From NCBI GenBank assembly GCA_040756055.1, contig JBFLZR010000006.1, forward strand, positions 124,001-188,000: DNA of 64,000 nucleotides, given 5' to 3'. Shown piece after piece: positions 53,962 through 64,000 of this stretch. The first letter of the stretch is position 1, and each line of letters opens with the position of its first letter. The notes below the pieces were generated by a model, which was not told the DNA's origin, searched no databases, and saw only the letters and a program-made list of their open reading frames with translations. This DNA comes from Candidatus Zixiibacteriota bacterium (GTDB taxonomy: Bacteria; Zixibacteria; MSB-5A5; GN15; FEB-12). The position numbers and the translations under genes were made by a program.

Positions 53962-56283
53962 ATGTCTGAAGAACACCACGTCAGAAACACCGAGCATGGC
54001 GAGAGATGCCGCCGCCGAATCCGAGTAAACGGGATAGTACAGGGCGTTGGTTTCAGGCCATTCGTGTATAACCTTGCGCGCGAGATTGGCCTGGCCGGCT
54101 TTGTGGCCAATGATACCGAAGGGGTCATAATCGAGCTGGAGGGCGCCCGGGAAGAAATAGACATCTTCATCCTGAGACTTCGTGAAAACCCTCCGCCGTT
54201 GTCTCATGTGGTTGGCTTTGACTCGAGCGAGGTGACCGTTAAAGGGGATACCGAGTTTACAATCAGTCGCAGCCAGCGGCAGCAGCTTGCCTCGACTCTT
54301 ATATCTCCGGACATAGCCGTCTGCCACGACTGTCTGAGGGAACTCTTTGACCCCAATGACCGTCGCTATTTATATCCTTTCATAAATTGCACCAACTGCG
54401 GCCCGCGTTATACCATTGTCGAAGGTATTCCTTACGATCGTCCGCTGACATCGATGAAGCGTTTTCCGATGTGTCCGGATTGCGACAGAGAATACCATGA
54501 TCCATCCGATCGCCGTTTCCATGCTCAGCCCAACGCCTGCCCGGTTTGCGGTCCGAAGCTCTTCCTGCGTGACTCGAACGGTGAGGTACATACGTCTGAC
54601 CCGATAGCATCCGTGGTTGAACAACTCAAGCAAGGGAAGGTTGTCGCCGTTCGCGGCGTTGGTGGGTTTCATCTGGCGGTGGATGCACACGATGAAAGGG
54701 CTATCGAGCGTCTTCGGAATCGCAAGGGGAGAGCCGAGAAACCGTTTGCTATGATGGCGCCGGATATTGAAAATATCCGCCGTTACTGCTCTGTGTCTGA
54801 CGACGAACTGGAACTTCTGACACACCACACCCGGCCGATTGTTCTGCTCAAAAAGCTCGAAGACTGTAGTCTTCCTGATTCCGTTGCCCCCAACAATAAA
54901 TATTTGGGGTTTATGCTGCCCTACAGTCCGCATCAGTATCTTCTCCTAAGGGACAATTTTGACGTCCTGGTGATGACAAGCGCGAATCTTGCGGAGGAGC
55001 CGATAGCTATCGGCAATGATGAGGTGATGGAGCGACTGAACGGTATCGCCGATTTATTCTTGCTTCACGATCGAGAGATAATCCAACGTTGCGACGATTC
55101 CATAGCCACCGTCACAGGCGGGTACACGCACATTATTCGACGGGCGCGCGGGTTCGTGCCGGCCCCGGTGTTTGTCGGCGAGAAAACATCTCGCAACATT
55201 CTGGCGTGCGGCGGAGAATTGAAAAATACCATAGCGCTCTCACGGGGAGATCAGGTTTTCTTAAGCCAGCATATCGGCGATCTCGATAGTCCGGCGGCGT
55301 TCAAGTTTTTCGAGGATTCGATTGAACATCTGGGGAGAATACTGGAGATAACACCTCAGGCGATCGCGTATGATTTACATCCCGAGTACCTGTCCACCAA
55401 GTGGGCTATTCGGCAGTCGCTACCTTCGGTGGCGGTGCAGCACCACCACGCGCATCTTGCCGCGGTGATGGCTGATAACGGGGCGAGTGAGCCGACGATA
55501 GGGATCATACTGGATGGCACGGGGTACGGGACCGATGGTACCATTTGGGGCGGAGAGGTTCTTATCGGTGATGCTGCCGGGTTCGAACGGCATGCCTGGC
55601 TCGAGACGGTAGCAATGCCCGGCGGAACCGCGGCTGTCAGGCAGCCATGGAGGATGGCGATAAGCTATCTTTATCATATCTATGGCTCCGGGCTGCTCGA
55701 TCTGCGACTGCCAATTCTCGGAAGTGTTGACCGCAAGACAATTGAAATAATTCTACAGATGATTGATAAAAAGGTCAACAGCCCGGCAACATCGAGCTGC
55801 GGAAGGCTTTTCGATGGTGTCTCGGCGTTGCTCGGCATTCGCGGCGAGGTCAGTTTCGAAGCGCAGGCGGCTATTGAGCTGGAAATGGCTTCCTGCCGTG
55901 ATTACCAGCCGCCGTCAATGCGGTTTGAGTCTGCGACAGCTTCCGGGGCGCTCCCCTGGGGAGAGATCGTGCAGGCAATAATCGCCGGGCTGTCGCGGGG
56001 TGACGATGTAGCGAAGCTGGCCGGGGAGTTTCAGGTCAATCTGGCCGAATTGTTTGTATCAGCTGCCCAAAACGCGAGGGGAAAATCAGCAATAAATCGA
56101 GTAGGTTTAAGTGGCGGTGTCTATCAAAACAGGTATTTTTCGGAATATCTGGTCAGGCGGCTGGCCGACGAGAAGTTCGATATCCTCCGCCACCGTCAGG
56201 TACCTACCAATGACGGTGGCCTGGCGTTGGGACAGGTTGTTGCCTCGGACGCCATGTTGCGGCGGGGCAACGAGGCGAAATGA
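53962..56283 (+). CDS. hypF: Carbamoyltransferase HypF
   Basis: A 773-residue maturation enzyme. In order: acylphosphatase domain (RRIRVNGIVQGVGFRPFVYNLAREIGLAGFVANDTEGVIIELEG, about residues 18-100), two zinc fingers (CHDCLRELFDPNDRRYLYPFINCTNCGPR and CPDCDREYHDPSDRRFHAQPNACPVCGP), a YrdC domain from about 210 (GKVVAVRGVGGFHLAVDA, KGRAEKPFAMMA) and a Kae1-like domain (VQHHHAHLAAVMADNG, GIILDGTGYGTDGTIWGGEVLIGD, VGLSGGVYQNRYFSEYL). HypF makes the carbamoyl adenylate from which HypE forms the CN ligands of the active-site iron. 22 bases after hypB and 19 before hypC. Confidence 0.95.
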   Translation: MSEEHHVRNTEHGERCRRRIRVNGIVQGVGFRPFVYNLAREIGLAGFVANDTEGVIIELEGAREEIDIFILRLRENPPPLSHVVGFDSSEVTVKGDTEFTISRSQRQQLASTLISPDIAVCHDCLRELFDPNDRRYLYPFINCTNCGPRYTIVEGIPYDRPLTSMKRFPMCPDCDREYHDPSDRRFHAQPNACPVCGPKLFLRDSNGEVHTSDPIASVVEQLKQGKVVAVRGVGGFHLAVDAHDERAIERLRNRKGRAEKPFAMMAPDIENIRRYCSVSDDELELLTHHTRPIVLLKKLEDCSLPDSVAPNNKYLGFMLPYSPHQYLLLRDNFDVLVMTSANLAEEPIAIGNDEVMERLNGIADLFLLHDREIIQRCDDSIATVTGGYTHIIRRARGFVPAPVFVGEKTSRNILACGGELKNTIALSRGDQVFLSQHIGDLDSPAAFKFFEDSIEHLGRILEITPQAIAYDLHPEYLSTKWAIRQSLPSVAVQHHHAHLAAVMADNGASEPTIGIILDGTGYGTDGTIWGGEVLIGDAAGFERHAWLETVAMPGGTAAVRQPWRMAISYLYHIYGSGLLDLRLPILGSVDRKTIEIILQMIDKKVNSPATSSCGRLFDGVSALLGIRGEVSFEAQAAIELEMASCRDYQPPSMRFESATASGALPWGEIVQAIIAGLSRGDDVAKLAGEFQVNLAELFVSAAQNARGKSAINRVGLSGGVYQNRYFSEYLVRRLADEKFDILRHRQVPTNDGGLALGQVVASDAMLRRGNEAK

Positions 56284-56301
56284 AGAAAGGATGCGCTCAA
56301 C

Positions 56302-56592
56302 ATGTGTTTGGCGATACCGGGGAAAGTAGTCGAAATAACCGAAGAAAACGGCGTGCAAATGGGGCGAATTGACTATGCCGGTACGGTCAATACCGCGTGC
56401 CTGGCGTATGTGCCGGAAGTGAAAGTGGGTCAGTATGTGATCGTGCATGCCGGTTTCGCGCTGAGTGTTATCGATGAGCAGGAAGCGGCCAGGACGCTGG
56501 CGCTTTTCGATGAGATGGTTCAGAAGGCCGCCGAAGAGGGTCAGGATGTTTTCGGTATGCCTCTTGATGAGCAGGGTGGGGATAAAGAATGA
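56302..56592 (+). CDS. hypC: Hydrogenase assembly chaperone HypC
   Basis: A 96-residue protein starting [12 protein letters not shown] with the essential Cys2, and with the typical small beta-barrel pattern ([43 protein letters not shown]). Slightly long at the C-terminus. It carries iron with HypD and docks on the hydrogenase large subunit. It overlaps hypD by four bases (ATGA). Confidence 0.95.
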
Positions 56593-57698
56593 AGTATCTC
56601 GATGAGTTTCGAGATCCAAAGATAGCCCGCAAGTTGCTTGATGAGATAACGGCAGCTATAACCAAACCGTGGGTGATAATGGAAGTATGTGGCGGACAGA
56701 CTCACGCCATAATCAGAAACGGCATTGATCAGCTTCTCCCTCAGGAGATTGAACTGGTACACGGTCCCGGATGTCCTGTCTGTGTGACACCGCTGGAGAT
56801 GATAGACAAGGCGCTGGATATTGCCTCGCGTCCAAACGTAATCTTTACTTCGTTCGGCGATATGCTTCGTGTCCCCGGATCAAAGAAAGACCTCTTTGTG
56901 GTCAAGTCGGAGGGCGGCGATGTCCGCATGGTGTACTCGCCGCTCGATGCTGTTAAAATCGCCAGGAAAAACCCCGACAAGCAGGTGGTCTTTTTTGCCG
57001 TCGGTTTCGAAACGACCGCGCCCCTGACTGCCATGGCGGTGTGGCAGGCTCACCAGCAAAATATCGACAACTTCTCAATGCTCGTGTCTCATGTTTTGGT
57101 GCCACCGGCTATGGAGGCCCTTTTAGGCTCGCCGGACAACAGGGTTCAGGCTTTTCTGGCTGCGGGGCATGTTTGTACGGTGATGGGGTGGGAGGAATAT
57201 GTTCCGATCGCTCAGAAGCACAAGGTTCCGATAGTGGTCACCGGTTTCGAACCGGTGGATATACTCGAAGGAATCCTGATGGCTGTCAGGCAGCTTGAAG
57301 ATGGGCGGGCGGAAGTAGAAAATCAATACGCCAGAGTAGTCAAACGCGAGGGGAACCGCCCGGCAATCGAAGTCATCAGAAAAGTTTTTCAAGTTACGGA
57401 TAGAAAGTGGCGGGGGATAGGTGAGTTCCCCAGAAGTGGATTCGCTTTAAGATCCGAGTTCGAGAAATATGATGCTGAGAAGCGGTTCGCGCTTGGGGAT
57501 ATTTCTGTAGAAGAGCCGCCCGAGTGTATCAGCGGACTGATTCTGCAGGGACTAAAGAAACCATACGAATGTGGTGAGTTCGGCAGGCGATGTACACCTC
57601 AAACCCCTCTGGGTGCCACGATGGTGTCCTCCGAGGGAGCCTGCGCGGCATACTTTGCTTATCATCGCCAGAAAGACGATAGTGTGGAGAAGAATTAG
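56589..57698 (+). CDS. hypD: Hydrogenase iron-site assembly protein HypD
   Basis: A 369-residue protein with a 4Fe-4S cluster. [20 protein letters not shown] (Cys near residue 34), [42 protein letters not shown] and [29 protein letters not shown] match the family. HypD with HypC assembles Fe(CN)2CO. The stop is three bases before hypE. Confidence 0.95.
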
Positions 57699-57701
57699 GA
57701 A

Positions 57702-58757
57702 ATGGGTAAGACGATTAAGCCTGAAGATCTCAAGTGTCCGCTGCCGATAACAGGGCACGACACGATACAACTCAGCCATGGAAGCGGCGGAAGGATGAGC
57801 AACGAGTTGATAAGCAAGTTGTTCGTGTGGGCGTTCGACAATCCGGCGCTCCGCAAGCAGGATGATCAGGCGGTGGTCGAGGTCAACGGTCTCAAGCTGT
57901 CATTCACGACCGATTCGTTTGTGGTTGATCCCATATTCTTTCCCGGAGGTGACATCGGCGACCTGGCGGTGAATGGGACTGTCAATGATATCTGTATGAA
58001 CGGGGCGACGCCTCTTTATCTGAGCGCCGGGTTTATAATAGAAGAGGGTTTTCCTTTGAAGGACCTTCAGGCCATAGTGATTTCCATGAAAAGGGCAGCG
58101 TCTGAGGCCGGAGTGCAGATAGTCACGGGTGACACGAAAGTCGTCAACAAGGGGAAAGGGGATAAGATTTTTATCAATACCGCCGGCATCGGTCTGATTG
58201 AACATGGTTATGATATTTCGTCGAGCAACCTCAAAGCAGGCGATGCGATAATACTCAGCGGGACCATTGCCGATCACGGCATTGCTGTTATGTCGAAGCG
58301 CGAGAATCTCTCGTTTGAGACGCCCATCACTAGCGACACAGCGTCATTGAATCGACTGGTGGCTGAGATTGTCAGGGTGGGTGGGGTCCACGCCATGCGC
58401 GACCCGACTCGTGGAGGTGTGGCAGCAACGCTGAACGAGTTTGCGATGGCCTCTCATGTCGGTATCCGCATACACGAGGACAGGATTCCGGTCAAGCCTG
58501 CGGTGGCTGGTGCTTGTGAGATTCTTGGGTTGGATCCGCTCTATGTTGCCAACGAGGGAAAGCTCGTTGCAGTTGTATCGCCGGATAAGGCAGAGGCGGT
58601 TTTGGCGGCCATGAAAAAGCATTCCCTGGGAGTGGATGCTGTAATCATTGGCGAAGTTGTCTCAGGGCAGTCCGGAATGGTGTCTATGACAACTCGCATC
58701 GGCGGGCAACGAATTGTCGATATGCCCGTCGGTGAGCAGCTTCCGAGGATATGTTAG
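57702..58757 (+). CDS. hypE: Hydrogenase maturation protein HypE
   Basis: A 351-residue ATP-dependent dehydratase of the PurM/AIR synthetase fold. LSHGSGGRMSNELISKLFV, FTTDSFVVDPIFFPGGDIGDLAVNGTVNDICMNGATPLYLS and RDPTRGGVAATLNEFA are present. The C-terminus is PRIC, ending with the cysteine that is thiocarbamoylated and dehydrated to the cyanide donor. It is the last hyp gene. No hydrogenase structural subunits are in the window. Confidence 0.95.
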   Translation: MGKTIKPEDLKCPLPITGHDTIQLSHGSGGRMSNELISKLFVWAFDNPALRKQDDQAVVEVNGLKLSFTTDSFVVDPIFFPGGDIGDLAVNGTVNDICMNGATPLYLSAGFIIEEGFPLKDLQAIVISMKRAASEAGVQIVTGDTKVVNKGKGDKIFINTAGIGLIEHGYDISSSNLKAGDAIILSGTIADHGIAVMSKRENLSFETPITSDTASLNRLVAEIVRVGGVHAMRDPTRGGVAATLNEFAMASHVGIRIHEDRIPVKPAVAGACEILGLDPLYVANEGKLVAVVSPDKAEAVLAAMKKHSLGVDAVIIGEVVSGQSGMVSMTTRIGGQRIVDMPVGEQLPRIC

Positions 58758-61847: not shown

Positions 61848-61876
61848 TTGACACGGCCGATTTGTTGACTTATAGT
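61848..61876 (+). promoter_or_regulatory. Strong sigma70 promoter of the ABC exporter leader
   Basis: TTGACA (61848-61853) and TATAGT (61871-61876) with exactly 17 bases between, one change from consensus overall. It drives a leader of about 265 bases before ATG 62148. Confidence 0.8.
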
Positions 61877-61949
61877 GGAACAACTATACGCCGTGTACGT
61901 AAATGAACTTTTGAGTAACCAAAACCCGTAAGGAGAGAATGCTGATTTC

Positions 61950-62027
61950 ATGAATAAGTTCTATGTGACAATTCAGGTATCCCCCCTCGGGAAGTTACGC
62001 GGCGGAGGCAGTGTATCGAATAAGTGA
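61950..62027 (+). CDS. Leader peptide ORF of the ABC exporter operon, 25 codons
   Basis: ATG 61950 to TGA 62025-62027 encodes MNKFYVTIQVSPLGKLRGGGSVSNK after stop removal (25 residues). AGGAGAGA (61931-61938) is 11 bases upstream; a five-codon ORF ATG 61939 to TGA 61951-61953 overlaps it as ATGA and could couple translation. The codons RGG (61998-62006) lie on the antiterminator arm. Similar leader peptides, such as BmrB of Bacillus subtilis, control ABC exporter pairs by attenuation. Whether translated is untested. Confidence 0.5.
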   Translation: MNKFYVTIQVSPLGKLRGGGSVSNK

Positions 62028-62060
62028 TGTTATTCACATATAAAGACTTAGCCCGCCGCG
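61998..62060 (+). promoter_or_regulatory. Antiterminator pairing of the exporter leader
   Basis: CGCGGCGG (61998-62005), inside the leader ORF, is the exact complement of CCGCCGCG (62053-62060), which is the 5' arm of the following terminator. If this pair forms, the terminator cannot. A ribosome at the leader ORF would cover the first arm and permit termination; ribosome absence or stalling upstream would allow antitermination. Confidence 0.5.
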
Positions 62061-62086
62061 ACCAGAAGGTTCGGCGGGTTTTTTTT
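62050..62086 (+). terminator. Intrinsic terminator in the exporter leader
   Basis: AGCCCGCCG (62050-62058) pairs with CGGCGGGTT (62072-62080) around a 13-base loop, with T8 (62079-62086). It lies 62 bases before ATG 62148, so it must be passed for the exporter genes to be expressed. Confidence 0.9.
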
Positions 62087-62147
62087 ATGGTGCGTCCGTC
62101 CGAGCCTGTAGTCGGCACCGTAAACCATAAAGGCAAGGACTGATAAG

Positions 62148-63947
62148 ATGTCTGCGGATTTATACGAACACGAAAAGATAAGTGACCGGGAGAAAGATAT
62201 AAGCTCCCGCAAGGCTTTTGCCCGACTTCTGCCCCTATTGAAAGAACACAAGGGTGGTCTCATACTGTGCTTGTTCCTTTTGGCCGGTGCCACTCTGCTG
62301 TCACTATACTGGCCGATTCTGCTTCGGCGAGCCCTCGATGTAAACATCGCCAACGGCGATCTCAAGGGTTTGCTGTACACCGTTGCCGGGATAGGACTGA
62401 TCCAGATAGTGACCATAATCATCCAGTACACCATGAGGGTGAAACTGGAGATTATCGGGCAGGATGTAATGCTGTTGCTGAAGCGCAAGCTGTACCATCA
62501 CATTTTGTCGCTCGATGTATCCTATTTCGACAAGAACCCGGTGGGCCGATTGATGGCCAGGGTGGAGTCGGATACCGAGGCGCTGCGCATGCTGTTCACC
62601 AACACGGTTGTCATGCTGGTAGGCGACGCCATATTGTTGGTTGGAATATACAGCGTCCTTTTCTACACGGAATGGCGTCTGGCGCTGCCGCTGTTTGTGA
62701 CGGTGCCAATAATCGGCACTATGGTATGGTTCTTCCATCGGAAAACGACCCCACGCTTTCTGGATGTGCGTAAGAAGATGGCCGAGGTCACGGCATCGCT
62801 GACGGAATTTCTGCACGGTATGTCGATTATACAGATATTCCATCGTGGAACCTATGCCCGGTATAAAGTCTTTAAGGCGAACGAGGCGAAGTTCAAAGAT
62901 GATGTCTATGTAAACCTGGGTGTCATTGCTTTCTTTAACTCGGCCTTTCTGCTTGAATATGTGAAATTAGGCATGGTGCTTATACTGGGACCGATTTTCG
63001 GTATCACCTATGGTTCGATTCTGATGTTTATCGTCTATATCTGGCGGTCGTTCGAACCGATCTGGCGGACCTCCGAGCAGTTATCGACCATCCAAAAGGC
63101 GATTGCCGGTTCGAAACGGATTTTCGCGCTTTTGTCGCAGGAATCAAGACTGCCGCAGCCCGAAAAGCCGGTCGCATGGAAGAAGCTTGAAAAAGGCATC
63201 AAATTCGAGAACGTATCGTTTTCATATAACGACGACGGCAATTATGCCCTTAAGGATGCTACTTTTGAAATACCGGTCGGTAAGCGGGTAGCTCTGGTCG
63301 GTGTAACCGGAGGCGGCAAATCGACCGTGATTTCGCTGCTTTTGAGGTTCTATGACCCTCAGAAGGGGAAGATCACAGTTGATGGAATCGATATCCGGGA
63401 TATGTCGATAGATGAGCTTCGTTCGAGACTGGCGCTGGTGCTTCAGGATATAGTCCTGTTCCCCGGCGATGTTGCTTCGAACATTTCGCTCGAATCCGAA
63501 TTGATCGGCGCGGCTGCCGTCGAAGCAGCGGCTCAGACGGTGGAAGCGGACCGATTTATCCGGATGCTGCCATCGGCATATTCGACCGAGGTGTCCGAAA
63601 AGGGCTCCAATTTCAGCCGGGGTGAAAGACAGCTGTTGTCATTCGCGCGGGCTCTGGCCTTCAATCCGGATGTACTGATTCTGGATGAGGCTACCAGCTC
63701 GGTCGATCCTGAAACGGAACGGACCATCCAGCAGTCGCTGAAGAAACTGATGGAGGGTCGGACCTCGCTGATTATCGCGCACCGTCTCTCGACTATTCTC
63801 GATGTTGACCAGATTCTCGTGATCAGGCGCGGCGAGATTATAGAGAGGGGGACGCACACGGAACTGATTCTGCAGAACGGCTACTACTCAAAGCTGTTCC
63901 ACCTTCAGTTCAAGAACAAAAACGGAGTATTAGCAAATGCTGGATAA
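62148..63947 (+). CDS. Type I ABC exporter half-transporter, first of a pair
   Basis: A 599-residue membrane protein. Six helices occupy residues about 35-320 (FDKNPVGRLMARVESDTEALR marks the coupling loop). The nucleotide-binding part has Walker A GVTGGGKSTV, the Q-loop LVLQDIVLFPG, a signature NFSRGERQLLSFARAL in which LSGGQ is degenerate, Walker B DVLILDEATSSVD and the H-loop IIAHRLST. This is like YheH/BmrD-type subunits of heterodimeric multidrug exporters, where one subunit has an impaired site. The second subunit begins at 63937 with an 11-base overlap. The substrate is unknown. Attenuated leader upstream. Confidence 0.92.
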   Translation: MSADLYEHEKISDREKDISSRKAFARLLPLLKEHKGGLILCLFLLAGATLLSLYWPILLRRALDVNIANGDLKGLLYTVAGIGLIQIVTIIIQYTMRVKLEIIGQDVMLLLKRKLYHHILSLDVSYFDKNPVGRLMARVESDTEALRMLFTNTVVMLVGDAILLVGIYSVLFYTEWRLALPLFVTVPIIGTMVWFFHRKTTPRFLDVRKKMAEVTASLTEFLHGMSIIQIFHRGTYARYKVFKANEAKFKDDVYVNLGVIAFFNSAFLLEYVKLGMVLILGPIFGITYGSILMFIVYIWRSFEPIWRTSEQLSTIQKAIAGSKRIFALLSQESRLPQPEKPVAWKKLEKGIKFENVSFSYNDDGNYALKDATFEIPVGKRVALVGVTGGGKSTVISLLLRFYDPQKGKITVDGIDIRDMSIDELRSRLALVLQDIVLFPGDVASNISLESELIGAAAVEAAAQTVEADRFIRMLPSAYSTEVSEKGSNFSRGERQLLSFARALAFNPDVLILDEATSSVDPETERTIQQSLKKLMEGRTSLIIAHRLSTILDVDQILVIRRGEIIERGTHTELILQNGYYSKLFHLQFKNKNGVLANAG

Positions 63948-64000
63948 AATAAAATGGTTCTGGAGATATTATCGGCGGTATCCATACGTGCTGCTGGTGC
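63937..64000 (+). CDS. ABC exporter, second half-transporter, N-terminal fragment
   Basis: Starts at ATG 63937, 11 bases before the end of the previous gene, and runs off the window. The 21 residues visible (MLDKIKWFWRYYRRYPYVLLV) have basic N-terminus then the beginning of a hydrophobic helix, as in ABC exporter partners. GGAG lies ten bases before the start. The rest cannot be read. Confidence 0.75.
   Translation, partial: MLDKIKWFWRYYRRYPYVLLV

Follow-up and report, generated by a model that had tools for sequence, protein, structure and literature searches.

Architecture of the leader region and its exporter genes

The window (the whole 64,000-nt stretch of DNA analysed here), which comes from the uncultured bacterial phylum Candidatus Zixiibacteriota (Zixibacteria), ends in an ABC exporter gene pair read on the forward strand. 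The first gene (62148-63947) encodes a 599-aa half-transporter with a canonical Walker B motif, which by comparison is YheH/BmrD- and TM_0288-like. The second gene starts at 63937, overlapping the end of the first at 63947, and was read on from the genome past the window end at 64000. Its YheI/BmrC- and TM_0287-like product has a Walker B motif ending in DD instead of DE, as is usual for heterodimeric exporters having one degenerate site. Matches of the exporter proteins include the solved BmrCD structures 7m33 and 8t1p. Judged by these comparisons, the downstream genes encode a heterodimeric BmrCD-like ABC exporter. Elsewhere in the window, genes at 53962-58757 were read by eye as the hydrogenase maturation factors HypF, HypC, HypD and HypE.

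The leader region is located between two divergently read repeat proteins and the first half-transporter gene, and all of its features lie on the forward strand. It opens with a predicted sigma-70 type promoter (61848-61876, 11/12 consensus match), composed of TTGACA (61848-61853), a 17-nt spacer and TATAGT (61871-61876). Transcription is predicted to start at about 61882-61884. Most orthologous leaders carry TTGACA at the matching place and a TAnnnT-like element 16-17 nt downstream. A putative ribosome-binding site, AAGGAGAG (61930-61937), lies upstream of two start codons. One belongs to a 25-codon leader peptide ORF (61950-62027, MNKFYVTIQVSPLGKLRGGGSVSNK), recognised from sequence and comparison, and the other to a four-residue ORF (61939-61953, ATGCTGATTTCATGA, MLIS and stop) that overlaps the leader start through ATGA. 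A preliminary description, made from the sequence alone, had presented the two as a coupled pair of 5 and 25 codons, the former count including the stop. Both ORFs are present; however, the shorter one is absent from the other leaders of the same genus and is probably incidental rather than a working part.

Arm 2 (CGCGGCGG, 61998-62005) lies within the leader ORF and was assigned by comparison as the 5' side of a candidate antiterminator. It is the exact reverse complement of CCGCCGCG (62053-62060), with a pairing energy of -16.5 kcal/mol. The latter segment falls in arm 3 (62052-62060), which together with arm 4 (62072-62079) forms the helix of a predicted intrinsic terminator (62051-62086; stem 62051-62079, T run to 62086, -20.5 kcal/mol). 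This terminator is skipped by a simple scanner because its loop exceeds 8 nt. The leader stop codon is located about 24 nt ahead of the terminator stem, inside a weak hairpin between arms 2 and 3 (62024-62037). The promoter, the 25-codon leader, the 8-nt complementarity and the terminator using the same arm had all been placed correctly beforehand. A further element that had been missed, arm 1 (CGCCGTGTA, 61889-61897), is seen in the fold of the whole transcript, where it pairs with 61996-62004 in the minimum-energy structure (-14.3 kcal/mol) and is a candidate anti-antiterminator.

Covariation supports two mutually exclusive helices

Exporter orthologues are present in most of the 98 genomes of the class, and their upstream regions were extracted for comparison. 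Most of these 5' leaders contain a strong hairpin followed by a T run. A complementary segment 40-50 nt upstream of the terminator hairpin was found at p<=0.05 in 59/74 orthologous leaders and at p<=0.01 in 35/74, as judged against dinucleotide shuffles. The arm-to-arm distance, measured from anchor to anchor, is 48.9 nt (s.d. 3.2). For the window genome alone, the match between arms 2 and 3 is only mildly above shuffles (p=0.04), and the case thus rests on the relatives.

In 51 aligned orthologous leaders, the antiterminator helix consists of standard pairs at 94.3% of positions, compared to 86.9% for shuffled and 34-54% for slid arms. Both sides have changed in 6 of the 9 pairs, amounting to 40 cells compared to 12.9 in shuffles, with 18 further pair types compared to 11.6. 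Not a single shuffle equalled the observed percentage paired, double changes, pair types or covariation score. The shuffles keep relatedness in, and hence pair changes were also counted on a tree of 28 exporter proteins; the fewest pair-state changes sum to 24 over six positions. The outer two antiterminator pairs (columns 6-73 and 5-74) are unused by the terminator helix, yet covary, with states GC, GU, AU, UA and CG, UA, UG, AU. The terminator helix itself is 98.3% paired in the orthologous leaders. Conservation of the pairing with compensatory changes in relatives had been proposed as a check on the attenuator, and the pairing stood up to it. By comparative sequence evidence, antiterminator and terminator are two mutually exclusive helices that share arm 3, both supported by covariation.

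It could be argued that the region holds an ordinary terminator, or an attenuator of constant level that sets basal expression, with the complementarity of arm 2 a by-product of coding constraints on Gly-Gly. A GG pair is indeed encoded in the arm of most leaders, and the p value for the window genome taken alone is in keeping with such an origin. However, where the encoded residues change, arm 3 changes along with arm 2, entire families having switched to GACGGG with CCCGTC, to CAATGGG with CCCGTTG or, in family f2, to GGTCC-GCGG with CCGC-GGACC. As the covariation also extends to pairs outside the terminator, we regard a constant-level device as very improbable.

The remaining structures are less widely shared. 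Complementarity resembling that of arm 1 reached p<=0.05 in 27/69 relatives taken one by one, and a universal arm 1 is thus not established. A conserved hairpin between the arms was likewise set aside, the mean z-score being -1.1 over 68 genomes. In about 20/68 leaders, a TGTGA-N6-TCACA-like palindrome covers the leader stop codon, at the place corresponding to 62024-62037 in the window. This resembles a CRP/FNR-type operator, and might indicate that protein binding rather than the ribosome controls read-through. However, the palindrome is absent from most leaders, some of which have another hairpin instead (CTATA/TATAG in G044), and arms and ORF are conserved with or without it. Control through such an operator is therefore considered extremely improbable.

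The leader ORF is conserved in position but poorly in sequence

In 66/68 genomes, compared to 14.1 expected, arm 2 lies within an ATG ORF of 18-40 codons whose stop precedes the terminator. When GTG starts are also allowed and a Shine-Dalgarno-like motif is demanded, an ORF spanning arm 2 is present in 63/68 genomes, compared to 3.5 expected by shuffling. The leaders of the 68 genomes have a mean length of 25.9 codons (s.d. 2.0), and arm 2 is nearly always in one and the same codon frame. The distance from arm 2 to the end of the stop codon is 22 nt in 41/68 leaders and 19 nt in 12/68.

This geometry bears on the proposal that arms 1-4 constitute the aptamer and expression platform of a riboswitch binding a metabolite or drug, with the ORF being incidental. 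Alternative terminator and antiterminator structures exist, as that proposal requires, and short motifs recur near the transcript start. In contrast, the frequency of the ORF with its ribosome-binding site and the fixed distance of its stop are not those of an incidental frame, and little structure is conserved apart from the switching arms. No Rfam family reached its gathering score in the 64,000-nt window, the best same-strand match being Trp_leader at 16.5 bits compared to the 41 needed. A riboswitch is thus very unlikely.

The leader peptides are diverse and poorly conserved, with few acidic residues. Among the 68 exporter leaders, none has a homopolymer run of at least three residues before arm 2, no residue is common to all, and no known arrest motif was identified in the peptides. 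There are, however, two favoured positions: proline occupies codon -4 relative to arm 2 in 27/68 leaders (permutation mean 4.6, maximum 13 in 5000), and glycine occupies codon -2 in 26/68. By genus, the former occurs in 14/45 and the latter in 21/45. In the window, these positions correspond to a Pro-Leu-Gly sequence at leader codons 12-14 (61983-61991), which is a candidate pause site. By comparison with the trp leaders described below, and assuming a footprint of about 30 nt, a ribosome stalled at the P-x-G positions would leave most or all of arm 2 open.

Exporter leaders of family f2 (G054, G057, G060, G063, G066, G068 and G070) contain a second, upstream short ORF, examples of which encode MIRVFHIGVNQA, MKFVYHIGAFKA and MSQVLKIGIITV. 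The tandem leader of this family may represent a separate sensor.

Proposed mechanism of attenuation

We propose that the region is a ribosome-mediated, leader-peptide transcription attenuator, and put the probability of this reading at roughly 0.87. Leader translation and regulated termination are what we infer from the computed segments, exclusive pairings, covariation and ORF geometry. According to the model, RNA polymerase would start near 61883 and a ribosome would load onto the 25-codon leader. A ribosome that keeps up with the polymerase would cover arm 2 and the RNA as far as the stop codon at the moment when arm 3 appears, so that arm 2 could not reach arm 3. The latter would pair with arm 4, and transcription would end. 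A delay or stall of the ribosome within about the first 13 codons would leave arm 2 free to pair with arm 3 first, blocking the terminator and allowing transcription of both exporter genes. With no ribosome on the leader, arm 1 could sequester arm 2 and so favour termination.

Folding of alternative structures, a check that had been suggested with the preliminary description, gave a mixed picture of this scheme. With arm 3 just made and the nucleotides under a ribosome at codon -5 masked, the helix of arms 2 and 3 is the best fold in 60/68 leaders, and it forms in 0/68 when the ribosome sits on arm 2. A ribosome at the stop codon fails to exclude the helix in 48/68 leaders when masking alone is considered. 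The OFF state would in that case depend on the body of the ribosome preventing the helix from closing, or on timing. Such a steric block is suggested by the position of the stop, which is 22 nt downstream of arm 2, with about 27 nt left to the terminator anchor.

When full-length leaders are folded, the minimum-energy structure favours the terminator in most of them, even with a ribosome stalled upstream. As the terminator is usually the more stable state once arm 4 exists, antitermination must be kinetic. A kinetic choice between helices is also made in other attenuators. In the absence of a ribosome, arm 1 paired with arm 2 together with the terminator is the best full-length fold in 51/68 leaders.

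Distribution in the phylum and similarity to trp and pheA attenuators

A covariance model was built on the region from arm 2 to the terminator. In its own genome, the model gives one strong match (80.9 bits); the next site scores 18.5 bits, and no other gene there was convincingly placed under the same element. Across the phylum, matches at E<=1e-6 occur in 79/132 genomes and 52/85 genera, almost always as a single copy. Amino-acid attenuators account for one of the 79 best matches (G131) and for one extra match (G057), so that the exporter count is slightly below 79. Sixteen matches had not been used for training; by tblastn, 13 of them are followed by an exporter orthologue, while two lie at contig ends and one is that of G131. 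The model recovered the element in G015, G059 and G067, beyond the initial terminator scan, while families f3 and f7 and a few f1 genomes are without a clear element. Some weak additional matches in relatives (L212, L213 and L214) have the appearance of ordinary terminators.

Two matches, L209 (G057:C126:10244-10333, minus strand) and L211 (G070:C114:6551-6640), have an anthranilate synthase (trpE) gene downstream and a leader peptide containing WWWW, as exemplified by MNFSVSHNNIPGSARNWWWWSIPDTGSG. The last Trp codon of these Zixibacteria leaders ends 12 nt before arm 2. A third, L244 (G131:C8:2235-2324, minus strand), encodes the leader MNRFATTADVYYYQYFGLFTQPRAGVNPPH (...VYYYQYFGLF...) before a chorismate mutase/prephenate dehydratase gene. 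By their anatomy, all three are amino-acid attenuators of the trp or pheA type. The trp leaders share with the exporter leaders a leader peptide, a distance of about 44 nt from arm 2 to arm 3 and a terminator that uses arm 3. They differ in that WWWW directly precedes arm 2 and anthranilate synthase is controlled, whereas no such run of regulatory codons occurs in the exporter leaders. That a model trained on the exporter leaders detects trp and pheA attenuators supports ribosome-read control of the exporter.

The same similarity raises the possibility that the attenuator responds, as do the trp and pheA leaders of the phylum, to shortage of an amino acid or charged tRNA, with the exporter handling a metabolite. 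Architecture and spacing equal those of the amino-acid attenuators found by the same model, and the enrichment of proline at codon -4 and glycine at -2 could be read as regulatory codons. However, none of the 68 leaders carries three identical residues in a row ahead of arm 2, no residue is common to all, and proline at -4 is confined to 14 of the 45 genera. The trp and phe type combines a cognate codon run with biosynthetic genes downstream; here the run is lacking and the gene is an exporter. We therefore consider an amino-acid signal unlikely, if less so than a riboswitch or a constant-level device.

Comparison with known antibiotic-responsive leaders

The closest precedent is bmrB-bmrCD (yheJ-yheI-yheH) of B. 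subtilis, which in 2014 was the first reported case of ribosome-mediated attenuation of a multidrug ABC exporter (PMC4191407). Expression of bmrCD is induced by lincomycin, erythromycin and chloramphenicol, but not by two 30S drugs, and requires translation of the leader (PMC4191407). In that species, antibiotics acting on the 50S subunit thus switch on an ABC exporter by way of such a device (PMC4191407). Given this precedent and the type of exporter, ribosome-targeting compounds exported by the transporter would, by analogy, be the natural trigger of the Zixibacteria attenuator.

Both systems comprise a leader ORF, a predicted anti-antiterminator, an antiterminator, a terminator and a heterodimeric BmrCD-type exporter. 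In contrast to bmrB, which has 53 residues and contains the terminator inside its coding region, the Zixibacteria leaders have 22-31 codons and end about 24 nt before the terminator. The order of the exporter genes is also reversed, with the YheH-like gene first and the YheI-like gene second, and the leader sequences are unrelated to bmrB, as is the phylum different. The preliminary description had seen the logic of bmrB-bmrCD in this locus; that reading is borne out for the architecture of a leader-peptide transcription attenuator, but not for the placing of the terminator or the gene order. Its suggestion of an independent case agrees with the unrelated leader sequences and with a search near 29 exporters of other phyla, mostly Firmicutes, which gave no convincing model match. 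Going by sequence and layout, the Zixibacteria element would work like bmrB-bmrCD yet is no relative of bmrB.

Other antibiotic-induced leaders of Firmicutes include those of yxjB of B. subtilis (PMC6851288), vmlR (PMC9226507) and msrD (PMC10314930). There, the behaviour of ribosomes on a short upstream ORF, or attenuation, reportedly controls a gene that counters ribosome-targeting drugs; the genes concerned differ, providing rRNA methylation or ABC-F ribosome protection. The open-licence literature yielded no earlier description of the present attenuator family, nor of attenuators in Zixibacteria. While the kind of device is known from bmrB-bmrCD, the Zixibacteria family therefore appears to be undescribed.

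That an independent design is kept throughout an uncultured phylum speaks for translation-stress sensing by leader peptides as a lasting solution to efflux control rather than the oddity of one species. Tentatively, and without regarding it as the probable history, we suggest that the P-x-G leader could be a general pause or arrest site trapped by many ribosome-targeting compounds, making the element an old, phylum-wide sensor of translation stress. A trp/pheA chassis would then have lost its amino-acid run, turning a biosynthetic switch into a drug-efflux switch since early in the phylum. The region offers a clean, portable test construct and a new RNA family absent from Rfam. The exporter, trp and pheA attenuators of one phylum also form a natural comparison set for how leaders change what they sense.

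Two genomes show unusual exporter arrangements. In G001, which is a single contig, the 5' part of the exporter with its attenuator is separated by 750 kb from a large 3' part (C1:2870900-2872400 and 2118666-2120003), reflecting either a rearrangement or an assembly error. G031 has two exporter copies with attenuators (C1:818165 and 1546918), the first of which is 82% identical to the window protein over 229 aa, suggesting transfer or contamination.
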